DNA from: Aurantiacibacter sediminis
GTDB lineage: Bacteria > Pseudomonadota > Alphaproteobacteria > Sphingomonadales > Sphingomonadaceae
Length of the DNA: 64,000 bases
Reading direction: 5' to 3'
Assembly: GCF_016019885.1 (NCBI RefSeq)
Contig: NZ_JAEANY010000002.1
Location: 1-64,000, forward strand
Below are positions 43,779 to 50,741 of the stretch, in pieces. Position 1 is the stretch's first letter, and the number at the start of each line of letters is the position of its first letter. The position numbers and the translations under genes are program-made. The notes beneath the pieces were generated by a model. It worked only from the letters and a program-made list of their open reading frames with translations, was not told the DNA's origin and did no database searches.

Positions 43779-44567
43779 ATGCAGTCGCTCCCGCTCTTCC
43801 ACCAGCTGACCGGCAAGCCGGTTATCGTGCTGGGCGAGGGCGAGATGGCGGAGCCAAAGCGGCGGCTGGTGGAGCGAGCCGGCGCGCGCATAATCACCGA
43901 CATGCAGACCGGAATAGATGAAGGGGCGCGAATCGCTTTTGTCGCGCATGACGACGCTGCTATGTGCGAGGCGGATGCGATCCGTCTGCGTTGCGCGGGG
44001 TTGCTGGTGAATGTGGTCGACCGGCCCGATCTGTGCGATTTCACCACGCCGAGCATTCTCGATCGCGATCCGGTGCTTGTCGCTGTCGGCACGGGCGGAG
44101 CATCGGCGGGCCTCGCCAAGCAATTGCGTCTGCGGCTGGAAAAGCTGCTTCCCGCAGATCTTGGGAAGCTTGCCTTGAAGCTATTTGGCGCGCGCGATGC
44201 GATCAAGGCGCGCTTTCCGATCATGGCAGAACGCCGCCGCGCTCTCGATGACGCGATGGCTGAGGGTGGCCCGCTCGATCCTCTACGAGAAGGCGGACCT
44301 TCCCGGCTCGATAAATGGCTGGCAGGCGCAGGCGATATCGCCTCCTCGCAGACAATCACCTTCACTCTCACAAGCGATGATCCCGAAGATCTGACGCTGC
44401 GTCTGTCGCGCCTTCTCGGAAGCGCCGATGCCATCATCGCCGATCCGGAAATCCCGGCAGAAATCCTTGCACGTGCCAGGGCAGATGCGCAGCGCTTAAC
44501 CCAGCCCTTCGAGGGCCCGGAACCAGATGGTTTGGTCCTCGTACTCAAAAGAGGAAAATTACAATAA
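43779..44567 (+). CDS. Siroheme-synthase N-domain protein (precorrin-2 dehydrogenase-like)
   Basis: A 262-residue protein resembling the N-terminal half of CysG/Met8, which oxidises precorrin-2 and inserts iron. Residues 1-110 include VIVLGEGEMAEPKRRLVERAGA, a Rossmann-like segment in place of the canonical GGGxVA, and LVNVVDRPDLCDFTTPSIL with the conserved Asp. A dimerisation-domain-like region follows. The methyltransferase half of CysG is absent, although the C-terminal 60 residues (TLRLSRLLGSADAIIADPE) echo its start. It begins four bases after lysA. Catalytic competence is uncertain because of the altered glycine motif. Confidence 0.72.
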   Translation: MQSLPLFHQLTGKPVIVLGEGEMAEPKRRLVERAGARIITDMQTGIDEGARIAFVAHDDAAMCEADAIRLRCAGLLVNVVDRPDLCDFTTPSILDRDPVLVAVGTGGASAGLAKQLRLRLEKLLPADLGKLALKLFGARDAIKARFPIMAERRRALDDAMAEGGPLDPLREGGPSRLDKWLAGAGDIASSQTITFTLTSDDPEDLTLRLSRLLGSADAIIADPEIPAEILARARADAQRLTQPFEGPEPDGLVLVLKRGKLQ

Positions 44568-44598
44568 ACACAGGAATTACAGCAATTTAATTTCAAAA

Positions 44599-44643
44599 CG
44601 TCAGTCTCTGACGGCAGGCTTCATGCAGGTCGACACGGTGTCG
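44599..44643. promoter_or_regulatory. Two inverted repeats upstream of the 51-residue peptide gene
   Basis: In the 98-base gap before the peptide gene lie CGTCAG-TCT-CTGACG (44599-44613) and CGACAC-G-GTGTCG (44631-44643). The second can be extended by a few imperfect pairs on each side. Both could be operator sites or mRNA hairpins; the second ends 22 bases before ATG 44666. The gap is also noticeably AT-rich at its left end. Confidence 0.4.
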
Positions 44644-44665
44644 GCCATGCAAATGGAGAACTGCA

Positions 44666-44821
44666 ATGAAACTTCCCAAGATCGATGTCGCCAGCCTGCC
44701 GGACCTCGATAAACTGACAGGCTTTTTCGGAGCTTCGGAAGGCCCGGGCCATGATGACACGATCATTGTCATCGCCACCATCGTTTATGACAGCAACCCA
44801 CCGTTCAGTGGGCTGTTCTGA
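44666..44821 (+). CDS. Small peptide, candidate RiPP precursor
   Basis: A 51-residue peptide too short for routine ORF calls. The start is ATG 44666, with GGAG eight bases upstream. The N-terminal part (KLPKIDVASLPDLDKLTGFF) is amphipathic and charged, like a leader. It is followed by GASEGPGHDD and then a hydrophobic segment TIIVIATIVYDSNPPFSGLF with Tyr, Asp, Asn, two Pro and no Cys. It lacks a signal peptide, and the hydrophobic run is too short for a membrane helix. It is 18 bases upstream of two co-directional genes of unknown function. A precursor for a modified peptide is my inference. I do not recognise a named family. Confidence 0.6.
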   Translation: MKLPKIDVASLPDLDKLTGFFGASEGPGHDDTIIVIATIVYDSNPPFSGLF

Positions 44822-44839
44822 TCGGGTTGGGTCGAGGCG

Positions 44840-45808
44840 ATGGACATCCATCCTGAGATCGCAGCGTTGCGGAGAGATCGCTCTCCGCAACGCGACGCCC
44901 AAGCCGCGATGGAGCGTGCGCGCATCGCGTGGCGAGCTGAGCCCGGAGCGCAGCAAATGCTTTCCGAGTTGGAGCGCTTTGGCGCCGGAGCTGGCTTGGA
45001 GCAATGCCCGCAGCTCGAAAAACTTTTCACCGAATGCGGCGAAGCGGAACGACTAATGAGCTTGCTTTCGCGGCATTATTGCGCCGCGCTCCGGGACACC
45101 CCGATTGGTCATCCGCCCTTTCGCACGGGGTTCGACGGCAAGGCCAGTTCGACACTGCTCGCCAGATCCGGCCGCGCCCAATTAATGGTGCAGACCCGCG
45201 AGCCGGGCTTTTATGGCGCCGATGCTATCACGTTGAGCGATGCGGCCCGCTATGATGCCGTACTCGCCGGGAAGGCGGAGGCGAGCATCGTCCGGGTGCG
45301 GCGCGCTGGCGAGGATCGCGTGTATATCAGCGCGCAGTCGATGCCGCTGACAGGAGAAGAGCGCATCGCACTGGATCGCTCGTCCGAAACGCTGGTCGTC
45401 GAAAGAGTAGAGCAACGCTTGGTCAGCCTGCAACTTATGCGCGATGCGGCCGATCCCGACCCCAAGCGAACCTATGACTTGGAAACCGGCAAGCTCGTCA
45501 ATCAAAGCGCGGCTTCGGTTGCGATCAGTCGGCAGGAGGCCATGATTGCCCTGCTAGGGCGCATGAGGCGAAGCGATGTAGCACCCGAACTCGCCCGGAT
45601 CGCGCTGGCTGAAAAAGACGTGTCTTTGCGCTGGCAGGCGCTTCGCGAGTGTATCGCGCTTGATAGCGAATGTGGTTTCTGCACGCTCGCGCGCATTGCC
45701 CGCACCGGTGACGATTCGCTTGCGGCAGCAGCAGGAGCGCTGCGCGCACAGCTGCTCGAAACCTACCCCGAATTTGTTCGACTGGAGGCCGAGAAATGCC
45801 CCGCGTAA
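44840..45808 (+). CDS. Hypothetical protein, possible cupin/HEAT-like partner of the small peptide
   Basis: A 322-residue soluble protein I cannot assign. The N-terminal third is helical and contains CPQLEKLFTECG. The middle (about 95-215) is beta-rich (RAQLMVQTREPGFYGADAITLSD, VRVRRAGEDRVYISAQSMPL, SETLVVERVEQRLVSLQLMRD) and could be a cupin-like sandwich. The C-terminal part (about 230-310) has helical repeats of HEAT type (MIALLGRMRRSDVAPELARIALAEKD, LRWQALRECIAL). Start ATG 44840 is 18 bases after the peptide stop, and it overlaps the next gene by 13 bases. The repeat scaffold would suit peptide or protein binding. Confidence 0.6.
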   Translation: MDIHPEIAALRRDRSPQRDAQAAMERARIAWRAEPGAQQMLSELERFGAGAGLEQCPQLEKLFTECGEAERLMSLLSRHYCAALRDTPIGHPPFRTGFDGKASSTLLARSGRAQLMVQTREPGFYGADAITLSDAARYDAVLAGKAEASIVRVRRAGEDRVYISAQSMPLTGEERIALDRSSETLVVERVEQRLVSLQLMRDAADPDPKRTYDLETGKLVNQSAASVAISRQEAMIALLGRMRRSDVAPELARIALAEKDVSLRWQALRECIALDSECGFCTLARIARTGDDSLAAAAGALRAQLLETYPEFVRLEAEKCPA

Positions 45809-46695
45809 TCCACTGCGAAGATACCTCATCGTGTGAGCTTGGCGAATGTATCGAAGCGCTCCACGATGAGGGCTTCAATCCTTGGGAGGAGAATAGTCTG
45901 CTGGGCGCCGCACGCTGGCTGCGCAGGCTTAATAACAATCGCGAATTTCTCGCCGATCTGATGGTGGAGGAATTGAAGCACGGGCCGGAAAGCTCAAAGG
46001 TCCCGGGCGATTACGGGCCGCAAACGATTATGCTCTCAGCGCTCGGCAGCGAATTCTACCTGCGTGCCAATTTGTGGCCGAGCCGGGATGAACATATGTT
46101 TCGCGCATCGGGCCAGTCGGCTTTCTCCTACGGACTGCCGCATGACCATAATTTCGATTTTCTGACCGTCGGATATTTCGGACCCGGTTACGCAAGTGAC
46201 TATTACGAATATGATTATGAGGCCGTTGCGGGCGTTGTGGGAGAAAAGGCCAAGCTGCGTTTCGTGGAACGCTCGACTCTCTCACCTGGCAAGCTGATGC
46301 ATTACCGCGCGCACCGCGATGTGCATTCGCAATTGCCGCCGGAAAGCCTCTCGGTTTCGCTCAACATCATGCATGCCGGTGGGGCGCAAGGGTGGCTCGA
46401 TCAGTATCGCTTCGATGTCGAGAATGATGTGATTGCCGGAGTGGTGAGCTCTGGCGGCAGTGAGATTTTCCTCCGGATGGCGGTCGGGCTGGGGGGGGAT
46501 GAAGCGCGCGATCTTGCGCATCATTTCGCGGGGTCGCACCCTAGCGACCGCATTCGGCTGGTGGCGCTGGAAGCGCAGGCAGGAGTGATGGATCGCGATG
46601 CGCAGGACGCACTTTGGCGCGCGGCGGAAAGCTCCGGCAGCCGCTTGATCGCAGGCGAGGCAAGGCGGCGTCGCGAGGCGCTCGAGTTGGCTTAA
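45796..46695 (+). CDS. Cupin-like putative metalloprotein next to the small peptide
   Basis: A 299-residue cytosolic protein. Its centre has two cupin-style segments: YGLPHDHNFDFLTVGYFGPGY (H116, H118) and TLSPGKLMHYRAHRDVHSQLPP (H173, H177), followed by SVSLNIMH. Together they could ligate an iron or other metal, as in cupin oxygenases. A helical tail completes it. GGAGG precedes ATG 45796, which lies inside the end of the upstream gene. From memory, relatives in sphingomonads are sometimes labelled transposase; nothing here (no DDE/DEDD motif, no inverted ends) supports that. It may modify the 51-residue peptide. Its stop overlaps the convergent ruvX stop. Confidence 0.65.
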   Translation: MPRVIHCEDTSSCELGECIEALHDEGFNPWEENSLLGAARWLRRLNNNREFLADLMVEELKHGPESSKVPGDYGPQTIMLSALGSEFYLRANLWPSRDEHMFRASGQSAFSYGLPHDHNFDFLTVGYFGPGYASDYYEYDYEAVAGVVGEKAKLRFVERSTLSPGKLMHYRAHRDVHSQLPPESLSVSLNIMHAGGAQGWLDQYRFDVENDVIAGVVSSGGSEIFLRMAVGLGGDEARDLAHHFAGSHPSDRIRLVALEAQAGVMDRDAQDALWRAAESSGSRLIAGEARRRREALELA

Positions 46696-48320: not shown

Positions 48321-49448
48321 TTACGCAGGGTCTGTCTCCAATGGACTTTGGCCGTTTATGCGCGCCGCTTCATCATCTGCATCATGCGCTGCGGCGCGCT
48401 GTTCCAGCGCCACCTTGATCATGGCGAGCAGCGGATCGGCGAGGAACAGGCCAAGGATGCCGAACAGGATACCCATTATCAGCTGAAATGCGAGCACGAG
48501 TGCAGGGGCCAGATCGACCGTCTTCCGCGCAATCATCGGCACGACGATATAGCCATCGATGTTCTGGACGAAGAGGTAAACGAAAATCGTGTAGATCCCC
48601 ATCTGCACTCCGCCGGAAAAGCCCACCAGCACCATCAGCACGCCAGAAATGATCGCGCCGATATTGGGCACGAAGGCAAGCAGTCCGGTCAGGATCGCCA
48701 GCAGCGCAGCCATCGGGATTTCGTCGCCCGTGACCACGCCATATCCAAAGAGCATGAGATAGGTGAAGATGCCTTCCACCACCATGCCGACAAGCCGCCC
48801 GGCCATAAGTCGTCGCATGGTGGAGCCCATCTTCTTCGCGGTTTCGAAGAAATAATGCCGGCGGCCCTTGGGCAGCATCCAAGCGACGCCGCGCTCATAC
48901 AGCTGCGGTTCGAGCGCAAAATAAATGCCGATGATGACGATCAGAATAACGGTGGTCACCCCGCCGAGCAGGCCACCAAGCGCCTGTGTAACGGTGCCAA
49001 AGCCGCTGGCCGCCTGGCTCGCCATTGCCTGCAGGCTGTCCATGCTGACTTCAAAGCCCTGCTCGCGCATCCATGCGAATACGCGCATTGCCTGTTCTTG
49101 CACGATTGACGGAAACTCAGCGGCCTCGCGAGAAATCTGCGAGCCCGCAAACATGCTGAGCCAAAAAAGAAAGGCCGAAACGGCGATAAGGACGATCGTC
49201 ACGCGCCACATCCGGCCGATGTCCAGAACACGACCCAAAAGGCGCGAGCCGCCGTCGACCATGGCCGCAAAGACCATGGCGCCAAAAATGACCAGCAGGC
49301 TGTGCGAAATATAGACCGCCAAGGCGATCAGGCCAATGACGGCGGTCCACACAAATGCGCGCCATGCCTCAAAACGCAATTCGGGGCTGGAGATGCGCGC
49401 CGGGCTGGCACCCATGCCGCTTTCGACATCTTCGGGCTTGTCACTCAT
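48321..49448 (-). CDS. AI-2E family transporter (PerM/TqsA-like)
   Basis: A 375-residue membrane protein with about eight helices. The N-tail is polar (MSDKPEDVESG). Helix pairs flank a soluble loop at about 115-160, and the C-terminal signature region reads FVPNIGAIISGVLMVLVGFSGG then NIDGYIVVPMIARKTVDLAPALVLA. The family exports or transports small molecules (the autoinducer-2 exporter TqsA is one member), but most members have unknown substrates. ATG 49448 overlaps the lepB stop as ATGA, and the longer frame is not supported. It is cotranscribed with lepB. Confidence 0.88.
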   Translation of the reverse strand: MSDKPEDVESGMGASPARISSPELRFEAWRAFVWTAVIGLIALAVYISHSLLVIFGAMVFAAMVDGGSRLLGRVLDIGRMWRVTIVLIAVSAFLFWLSMFAGSQISREAAEFPSIVQEQAMRVFAWMREQGFEVSMDSLQAMASQAASGFGTVTQALGGLLGGVTTVILIVIIGIYFALEPQLYERGVAWMLPKGRRHYFFETAKKMGSTMRRLMAGRLVGMVVEGIFTYLMLFGYGVVTGDEIPMAALLAILTGLLAFVPNIGAIISGVLMVLVGFSGGVQMGIYTIFVYLFVQNIDGYIVVPMIARKTVDLAPALVLAFQLIMGILFGILGLFLADPLLAMIKVALEQRAAAHDADDEAARINGQSPLETDPA

Positions 49449-50323
49449 TGCGATGGCTCCACTCTCAGCTCCGGCCGTAGCGGTGTCCAGGCGCGCTCCC
49501 CGCGCAAGGCTCCCCACCATGAAAGCGGGTTGTAGCTGGAAGTTCCGTCGAGCGAAAATGTAATAATCTCAGCGCGTCCGCCCACGCTGGTAAGCGGCAC
49601 GGGCCCGCCAAGGCCATTGCCGCCCTGCATCAGCGAAGGGGCGCGGCTGTCCGAGGAGTGATCGCGATTGTCGCCCATCAAGAACACGTGGCCTTCCGGC
49701 ACGGTGACGGGCAGCATATTGTCGAAGCGCTGGCGCATATGATCGATGATCAGATAGCTCGCGCCGTTTGGTAGCGTTTCGCGATAAGTCGGCGGCTCGT
49801 AAACGTGTGTGCCGTTTTCCAGCGTGACGCGGTACGGCTCGAAATCATCGAGGCAGGGCGCTTCGCTACCGAAGGCGGTGGCGCACAGATTATCGTTTTC
49901 GGCTGGAAGGCGCACCGGCGGCTCCATATCCTGCGGCACCGGCTCGCCGTTCAGGATAATCTGTCCGTCCACCAGCGCCACCGTGTCCCCCGGCAGGCCG
50001 ATCACGCGCTTGATGTAGTCGGTGTTTTCATCGGGCGGTACTACGATGACGATGTCGCCATATTCGGGCGTCGCTGGGGCAATACGCCAGTCGCTGCGCG
50101 GAAGGACGTGGAAGCTCGCCGAGACCCAGCTCCAGCCATAGGGATATTTGGACACGATCAAACGGTCGCCCACCATCAGATTGGGCACCATGCTGGCTGA
50201 GGGGATGTAGAACGGCTTGGCGATAAAGGTGTGGAACAACAGCACGACCAGCAGCATCACGGCAAGGCCGCGCAGCTCGGCCCACCAGTTGACCTTCTCA
50301 TCCTGCTCTTTTTCGTCAGTCAT
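49445..50323 (-). CDS. lepB: Signal peptidase I
   Basis: It removes signal peptides from exported proteins. The 292-residue protein has one transmembrane helix at about 14-34 and a periplasmic catalytic domain. Ser is in YIPSASMVPNLMVGD, Lys in DYIKRVIGLPGDTV, and the family's C-terminal box is VFLMGDNRDHSSDSR. ATG 50323 is chosen; an extension of 12 residues lacks support. It sits between acpS and the AI-2E transporter. In many alphaproteobacteria lepB is followed by rnc and era; those are absent here. Confidence 0.95.
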   Translation of the reverse strand: MTDEKEQDEKVNWWAELRGLAVMLLVVLLFHTFIAKPFYIPSASMVPNLMVGDRLIVSKYPYGWSWVSASFHVLPRSDWRIAPATPEYGDIVIVVPPDENTDYIKRVIGLPGDTVALVDGQIILNGEPVPQDMEPPVRLPAENDNLCATAFGSEAPCLDDFEPYRVTLENGTHVYEPPTYRETLPNGASYLIIDHMRQRFDNMLPVTVPEGHVFLMGDNRDHSSDSRAPSLMQGGNGLGGPVPLTSVGGRAEIITFSLDGTSSYNPLSWWGALRGERAWTPLRPELRVEPSQ

Positions 50324-50336
50324 GGGGGCGATTATT

Positions 50337-50741
50337 CTAGGGCTTGGGATGCGCTTCAAGGATCACGAAGGCCTGCGCCCATGGATGATCGTCGGTGAGG
50401 GTGAGATGAATGAACACCTCATACCCGTCCGGCGTCAGCTGTTCCAGCCGCGCTTTCGCTCCGCCTGTCAGCGCGAGCGTCGGCGCGCCGGAGGGCGCAT
50501 TCACCACGCCGATATCCTTCATGAAGACGCCGCGTTTGAAGCCGGTGCCCACTGCCTTGCTGAACGCCTCCTTTGCGGCGAAACGCTTGGCATAAGTGCC
50601 CGCCTGCGTGAGCGGACGCCGCGCTGCCTTGGCATTCTCCACATCGGTAAAGCTGCGCTGCTTGAAGCGGTCACCCCACCGGTCGAGCGAATTCTGGATA
50701 CGCTCGATATTGCAAAGGTCTGAGCCGAGGCCGATGATCAT
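50337..50741 (-). CDS. acpS: Holo-[acyl-carrier-protein] synthase
   Basis: It attaches 4'-phosphopantetheine to acyl carrier protein; 134 residues, the trimeric AcpS type. [14 protein letters not shown] carries the Mg-binding Asp, and [18 protein letters not shown] carries the second acidic ligand and coenzyme A contacts. It lies 14 bases before lepB. The pdxJ-acpS-lepB order is common in this class of bacteria. Confidence 0.95.

Follow-up and report, generated by a model that had tools for sequence, protein, structure and literature searches.

What does a 51-codon open reading frame (ORF) encode when it stands directly before two larger genes that family libraries leave unnamed, and do the three genes belong together? 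The question arises in the first 64,000 nucleotides (nt) of contig NZ_JAEANY010000002.1 of Aurantiacibacter sediminis (hereafter the window), where the three genes lie in line on the + strand. A preliminary description, made from the letters of this DNA, had proposed a peptide gene with its own ribosome-binding site, placed 18 bases before the first of two overlapping larger genes and preceded by two inverted repeats; this layout was found in every particular, with a gap of 18 nt between the peptide stop and the ATG at 44840, an overlap of 13 nt between the two large genes, and both repeats in place. We propose, with a probability of roughly 0.68, that the three genes form a new peptide-modification unit of the ribosomally synthesized and post-translationally modified peptide (RiPP) type, in which a cupin with three putative metal-binding histidines would oxidize an aliphatic core and its catalytically dead paralogue would bind the leader. 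The features that the argument draws on are these:

44576..44593, + strand: promoter-like element, consensus ATTACA[AG]TnnTTTAA[CT]T, with one mismatch in the window (motif match)
44599..44613, + strand: short inverted repeat CGTCAG/CTGACG (window sequence)
44628..44646, + strand: hairpin of the 5' untranslated region, the second inverted repeat, directly upstream of the Shine-Dalgarno-like sequence (sequence; stem score in relatives)
44655..44659, + strand: Shine-Dalgarno-like GGAGA (sequence; purine-rich sites lie here in most relatives)
44666..44821, + strand: precursor-like peptide of 51 amino acids (aa) (conservation, selection, linkage)
44759-44791, + strand: valine/isoleucine (V/I)-rich part of the peptide, about residues 32-42, the leader with its LPxL motif being about residues 1-24
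44840..45808, + strand: pseudo-cupin/HEAT partner of 322 aa, paralogous to the enzyme but lacking its ligand pattern; proposed leader binder
45796..46695, + strand: cupin/HEAT protein of 299 aa, the proposed metal-dependent oxygenase (structure model, Foldseek, conserved pattern)
46141-46143, 46147-46149 and 46324-46326, + strand: codons of the proposed enzyme ligands H116, H118 and H177 (conserved pattern)

The 51-residue ORF proves to be a genuine gene: it is conserved, purifying selection acts on it, and in almost every main-lineage locus examined it immediately precedes the two larger genes. Main-lineage loci were gathered by the cupin protein alone, independently of the peptide, yet a peptide match lay just upstream in 107 of 110 (E ≤ 1.5e-4), which indicates that the linkage of peptide and gene pair exceeds chance. 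Two more peptides were assigned by position only (L015 and L109), and no peptide ORF was found upstream in L104, where the contig begins close to the pair. The partner gene was present in all 110 loci, and peptide, partner and enzyme co-occur in fixed order, which speaks for a single unit; the loci overlap, L001-L030 and L031-L110 sharing genomes, and contain 92 distinct peptides. The expectation that a short ORF always precedes this cupin family therefore holds well in the main lineage, whereas no peptide ORF was found in 3 of 15 loci from other Pseudomonadota. Among 298 genomes of the window's family, the enzyme was matched in 105 and the peptide profile in 90, both being present in 87 of these 90 (compared by hand); in the remaining three, the peptide sits beside the usual flanking genes with the pair missing. 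The profile misses divergent peptides, leaving 18 of the 105 enzyme-positive genomes without a match (by hand). Over 198 gap-matched pairs, the ratio of nonsynonymous to synonymous differences (pN/pS) was 0.39 in frame compared to 1.13 and 1.88 in the shifted frames, and this selection at the amino-acid level rules out a chance ORF. The ratio was 0.56 over all 4186 pairs, many of them far diverged, and 0.36 in a pre-filtered set of 425 pairs, a value biased downward because only pairs with pN below 0.25 were kept; differences by codon position were 0.40, 0.28 and 0.55. Conservation and substitution rates in relatives thus leave the peptide gene of the preliminary description unrefuted in the main lineage.

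The leader-like N-terminal half and hydrophobic C-terminal half first noticed in the window peptide recur as a bipartite layout across 66 aligned peptides. P4, P12 and G22 of the leader are invariant, and D7, L11, L14, G19 and F21 are kept in at least 90%; a linker of variable length follows, and then a V/I-rich block, with D31 and Y41 again kept in at least 90%. The densest V/I stretch lies at a mean relative position of 0.71 in the 92 main-lineage peptides and 0.67 in 24 divergent ones, versus 0.41 in shuffles, which here and in the promoter and hairpin comparisons below preserved single-letter composition only. A conserved ORF with a ribosome-binding-like site, purifying selection and a leader followed by a core is what a gene-encoded RiPP precursor consists of. 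Cysteine is ruled out as a universal substrate, being present in only 3 of the 66 main-lineage peptides. A VGGxxC-like motif precedes the hydrophobic tail in the divergent peptides of L111-L116, L120, L215 (VGGVC) and L187 (VGAAC), and its conserved cysteine, to judge from the motif, is a possible alternative substrate there. The window peptide has no double glycine.

The candidate modifying enzyme beside this precursor is the 299-aa protein, which, on the strength of conserved residues resembling metal ligands, we propose to be a metal-dependent oxygenase of the three-histidine cupin type. Its AlphaFold2 model (predicted local distance difference test, pLDDT, 93.5) has a cupin fold of the cysteine dioxygenase (CDO) type, as judged by Foldseek, and both large proteins combine a CDO-like cupin barrel with a helical, HEAT-like C-terminus, a reading that in the window proteins is taken from the C-terminal helices of the structure models; relative to thiol dioxygenases, the enzyme also has extra N-terminal helices. 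Among the best 50 of 132 Foldseek matches at E ≤ 0.001, mercaptosuccinate, 3-mercaptopropionate and cysteine dioxygenases came at the top, followed by ADO, ergothioneine dioxygenase and PCO4, and other cupins, for example a hydroxylase-like protein, were also listed; 8vni (E 6.9e-8) and 4tlf (E 1.2e-7) aligned at a target template modelling score of about 0.6, with root-mean-square deviations of 6.1 and 6.6 Å. An alignment of 43 relatives has H116, H118 and D175 without exception and H177 in 42, so that three of the four metal-ligand positions originally named (H116/H118 and H173/H177) are conserved as described, whereas H173 is kept in only 33 and is therefore probably no ligand. The pattern H116-x-H118 ... 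D175-x-H177 was found only in the second large protein of the pair. Among 17 enzyme ORFs from other Pseudomonadota, restricted to E < 1e-20 (a weaker L216 fragment was dropped), HxH and H177 are present in all 17 and D175 in 16, with Glu at 175 in L188, and W94, H116-x-H118, Y132, D175-x-H177 and S188 are kept together in 16. Nine of these 17 ORFs are only 228-260 aa long, which suggests that the C-terminal HEAT-like part may not be essential.

Compared by eye with a mercaptopropionate dioxygenase-like protein of another locus (L180), the enzyme has H116, H118 and H177 on the metal histidines and shares the pattern HxH ... DxH ... SxSx. S188, N190 and M192 fall, in the same mapping, at the Ser, His and Tyr positions that we take to be the catalytic triad sites of thiol dioxygenases. 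Neither His at 190 nor Tyr at 192 occurs in any of the 43 relatives, leaving the triad incomplete in this by-eye mapping, and the chemistry may therefore be other than sulfur oxidation.

Profile comparison shows the two large proteins to be paralogues, hhalign aligning the partner family with the enzyme family at a probability of 94.8 (E 5e-8 over 243 columns). The preliminary description had overlooked this relationship, as well as the HEAT-like helices at the end of both proteins: it had taken the partner for an unassigned HEAT-like protein, and the HEAT-like helices are indeed there, but, far from being an unrelated scaffold, the protein is paralogous to the enzyme and has lost its ligand pattern. 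A HEAT_2 match was obtained for the Alteromonas partner (E 5.2e-9), the Alteromonas enzyme matching only below the cut-off. No His column exceeds 58% in 55 aligned partners, and the partner looks like a pseudo-enzyme devoid of the metal-ligand pattern. When the peptide was tethered to the partner in a single AlphaFold model, most of the partner exceeded pLDDT 90, and peptide residues 1-10, 11-20 and 21-50 had mean values of 91, 74 and 43-51, respectively, placing the leader confidently beside the partner and the V/I-rich C-terminal half not; we read this prediction as a bound leader and a free core. Foldseek matched the tethered partner model to a cysteine dioxygenase among other cupins.

Beyond the main lineage, candidate peptides were selected by eye among ORFs preceded by a ribosome-binding-like site. 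One was present in each of 20 divergent loci of the family (in L129 beside an enzyme remnant only) and in 12 of the 15 loci of other Pseudomonadota, those of L123, L209, L217 and L219 being weak; L213/L214 and L217/L219 are near copies. Precursors occur in tandem, again by eye, with two in L115, two in L187 and three in L215. According to Pfam, genes for HlyD, an ATP-binding cassette (ABC) protein and FtsX/MacB lie beside the pair in L187, L115, L210 and L215, and more loosely in L216, which has an HlyD gene nearby. Two tandem units occur in L115, of which the second has two peptides; behind them come genes for HlyD and ABC, two of FtsX type and another ABC gene. On the Alteromonas plasmid Yip1, HlyD, ABC and MacB genes are followed by two small ORFs, the pair, an ABC ATPase and an ABC-2 permease. 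The three peptides of L215 come after HlyD-ABC-MacB, while L210 has two partner-enzyme pairs beside the same cassette and a third pair in adjoining L209 on the same contig. In the remaining loci of other Pseudomonadota, no such export cassette was found in the flanks examined by comparison with the Alteromonas export genes and by an ABC motif scan.

We picture the proposed unit as follows. The small gene would encode a precursor composed of an N-terminal leader (LPKID..LPDLDxLTGxFGS) and a C-terminal V/I-rich part; the leader would be held by the second protein, the catalytically dead enzyme paralogue, as one structure model suggests; and the third protein, a three-histidine cupin with a thiol-dioxygenase-like fold, would modify the C-terminal part, most likely through O2-dependent oxidation of aliphatic or nearby side chains. 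Gene neighbourhoods suggest that in some relatives the product may be exported by the HlyD-ABC-MacB system and that a second ABC system may give self-protection. The RiPP-type layout first suggested is supported by the conserved precursor-like peptide, the adjacent cupin with its conserved metal-ligand-like pattern, the partner, and tandem peptides with exporters in some relatives; the partner, however, is a paralogue of the cupin protein and no unrelated scaffold. The wider proposition, that a thiol-dioxygenase-fold cupin-HEAT enzyme and its dead paralogue as leader-binding subunit define a new RiPP class oxidizing V/I-rich cores in at least three Pseudomonadota families, with MacB-type export in several loci, seems to us about evenly balanced between true and false.

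Several observations weigh against a modification unit. The C-terminal part of the peptide is conserved rather than hypervariable in the main lineage, no residue of the C-terminal half is common to all peptides (Tyr41 is missing in many divergent ones), and the scarcity of cysteine noted above belongs here too. No peptide ORF was found in L188, L216 and L218, and that of L123 is weak. An HxH of some kind is present in 12 of the 55 aligned partners (H[DN]H in 2) and in 5 of 13 partner ORFs from other Pseudomonadota, where alignment positions were not compared. Confidence in the leader is a local pLDDT from one tethered model, obtained with neither control peptide nor coordinates. A sequence-level link of the enzyme to thiol dioxygenases was tried and was not significant (hhalign probability 1.6 against a two-sequence profile; no Pfam match to CDO families), so the mapping by eye is not supported by profile comparison alone. 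A motif scan for ABC-type ORFs detected none around the 80 main-lineage loci L031-L110, in flanks of at most ±6 kb that were shorter where contigs ended early, and a signal peptidase I-like gene is the one neighbour noted that resembles a protease, leader proteases not having been searched for systematically.

Part of this evidence would also suit a peptide that stays with the cupin pair as a permanent small subunit or as a regulator, its N-terminus anchored to the pseudo-enzyme and its C-terminal segment gating an enzyme that acts on a small molecule. The conserved C-terminal segment, the 1:1:1 gene order, the absence of an adjacent ABC exporter in the main lineage and the confident placement of the peptide N-terminus in the tethered model all fit such a role, but two or three peptide genes per pair with exporters beside them (L115, L187 and L215) do not, nor does the low confidence of the peptide C-terminal half, and we regard this explanation as improbable.

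Sequences upstream of the peptide gene bear on two further explanations. The promoter-like element was found in 88 of 91 distinct-peptide loci at up to 2 mismatches, about 90 nt upstream, compared to 0.05% of mononucleotide shuffles; its consensus of 17-18 nt was derived from 19 of the loci and then scored. It lies 84-105 nt before the peptide start, and 150 nt in L109, whose start is uncertain. Seven unit-bearing genomes contained 6 matches at up to 1 mismatch, 5 of them at the unit locus, while 2 genomes had none; the reversed pattern, scored as a control, was matched twice. A hairpin stem score of at least 7 was reached in 43% of 91 relatives versus 18% of mononucleotide shuffles, with the 3' end of the hairpin 13-21 nt before the start codon in 29 of 39 such relatives; stem sequences differ from locus to locus, and Rfam returned no match at 44400-45000. 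In two divergent loci, an ECF sigma-like gene (by eye) and a membrane protein gene lie directly upstream of the unit (L111 3497-4680; L115 3385-4520); the two membrane proteins are related (E 3e-7) and are possibly anti-sigma factors.

An element so nearly locus-specific suggests dedicated control, which, together with PCO4 and ADO among the Foldseek matches listed, would suit an oxygen-sensing unit whose cupin oxidizes the peptide as a signal, in the manner of plant cysteine oxidases or ADO; with cysteine in so few main-lineage peptides and exporters in some relatives, we consider this very unlikely. That the small ORF is an attenuator-like translational leader, only controlling expression of the two larger genes, is suggested by its position just upstream and the hairpin, and is hardly credible given amino-acid-level selection on the peptide, tandem copies in some loci and its own ribosome-binding-like site.

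The distribution of the modification unit that we favour was traced through its enzyme. Whole-genome searches, which scored a limited number of first-look candidates per genome and whose absences are accordingly not certain, matched the enzyme in the 105 family genomes mentioned (some as fragments) and in 78 of 246 genomes of the order, where one match, weak and partial, fell outside the family. A draw of 289 genomes from the class gave 3 matches, every one within the same family and one in the window's own genome. A draw of 349 from the phylum gave 13, of which ten belonged to the family, two to other families (G848 and G1006) and one was weak. Within the families of these two genomes, the enzyme was matched in 6 of 147 (that of G848) and 6 of 149 (that of G1006). 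Relatives also occur on plasmids of Alteromonas stellipolaris and Vibrio sp. ED002. The window genome gave a single enzyme match. In the window, lysA-like and cysG-like genes precede the unit and a ruvX-like gene follows on the opposite strand (names assigned by eye). Among the 80 loci L031-L110, a DUF3089-like gene lay downstream in 48 and a ruvX-like gene in at least 30, and upstream neighbours were less shared (cysG-like in 32, thioesterase-like in 37); these counts are based on ORFs named by eye and are likely undercounts. Two genomes of the same genus have the cysG-like gene directly followed by ruvX, with the unit missing and its flanks joined. Shared flanks and such losses indicate that the main-lineage unit was mostly inherited in place and repeatedly lost. 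A phage or defence origin of the main-lineage unit was rejected, since a scan of viral contigs returned no relative, PADLOC and PHROGs had no usable match, and this unit lies in a shared chromosomal neighbourhood.

No described system with this combination had been known to the preliminary description, and among the matches listed from the open-licence literature we likewise found no account of a peptide, an enzyme and its dead paralogue together. With the three proteins as queries, Pfam, NCBIfam, PADLOC and PHROGs yielded nothing usable (a single DUF693 match was weak, E 0.22), and neither the cupin protein nor its profile had a convincing counterpart among PDB sequences. A RiPP recognition element (RRE, PqqD-like) had no Pfam or NCBIfam match in the three proteins either, although a divergent RRE could be missed. 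Comparable systems include those Gram-negative bacteriocin clusters that have MacB-type exporters and double-glycine leaders. Some relatives resemble them in having HlyD, ABC and MacB/FtsX genes and a second ABC system beside the peptide genes, and in the leader of L213/L214, which we take to be of the double-glycine type, whereas the main-lineage loci lack a nearby ABC exporter and the window peptide a double glycine. Thiol dioxygenases (CDO, 3-mercaptopropionate, mercaptosuccinate, ADO/PCO) share the cupin barrel and, by eye, the HxH ... DxH ... SxSx pattern, but the window enzyme has no Pfam or profile match to them, has N190 and M192 where we assume the catalytic His and Tyr to lie, and adds N-terminal helices, a HEAT-like C-terminal part and an adjacent precursor-like peptide. 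MNIO/DUF692 RiPP clusters bring together a small precursor, a modifying enzyme and a partner protein (PMC12257519), and YcaO-TfuA is an enzyme-partner pair within a RiPP cluster (PMC8120280). The window unit would likewise bring three such components together in one cluster, but both of its large proteins are cupin-HEAT paralogues, and Pfam links neither of them to MNIO, YcaO or an RRE domain. PbsQ/BpmG, which are JmjC-related and cupin-like, hydroxylate a ribosomal peptide, PbsQ being one of several enzymes in an MNIO pathway (PMC12257519), whereas in the window unit the thiol-dioxygenase-like cupin stands alone as enzyme candidate. If the proposal is true, an enzyme type unnamed in the family libraries searched would join ribosomal peptide modification, and a dead copy of the enzyme itself would recognize the leader in place of a dedicated recognition domain. 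Being small, the system is testable with three genes; it has many sequence variants and offers a candidate meaning for gene pairs annotated only as hypothetical in Alteromonas and Vibrio plasmid records.

Some loci show decay or unusual surroundings. The peptide persists beside deleted or truncated partner and enzyme genes in L168, L161, L162, L163 (peptide match weak) and L129; in L168 the start of the partner gene adjoins the end of the enzyme gene. In L166/L167 (G162:C1:1746390 and 1786405), the two parts of a partner gene divided at about residue 250 lie about 40 kb from each other, which looks like an interruption of the unit by a large insertion or a rearrangement. The signal peptidase I-like gene of the window (49445-50359, - strand; by eye), a downstream neighbour in 35 of the 80 loci L031-L110, is probably a housekeeping gene. 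By eye, the unit lies near a very large ORF resembling a nonribosomal peptide synthetase in L213 and L214, and efflux adaptor-like and resistance-nodulation-division pump-like genes precede it in L190 (3574-7931), with a similar large pump-like ORF upstream in L212. In L211 (5236-7924), the enzyme gene is followed by genes for two unassigned proteins, one of 438 and one of 459 aa.

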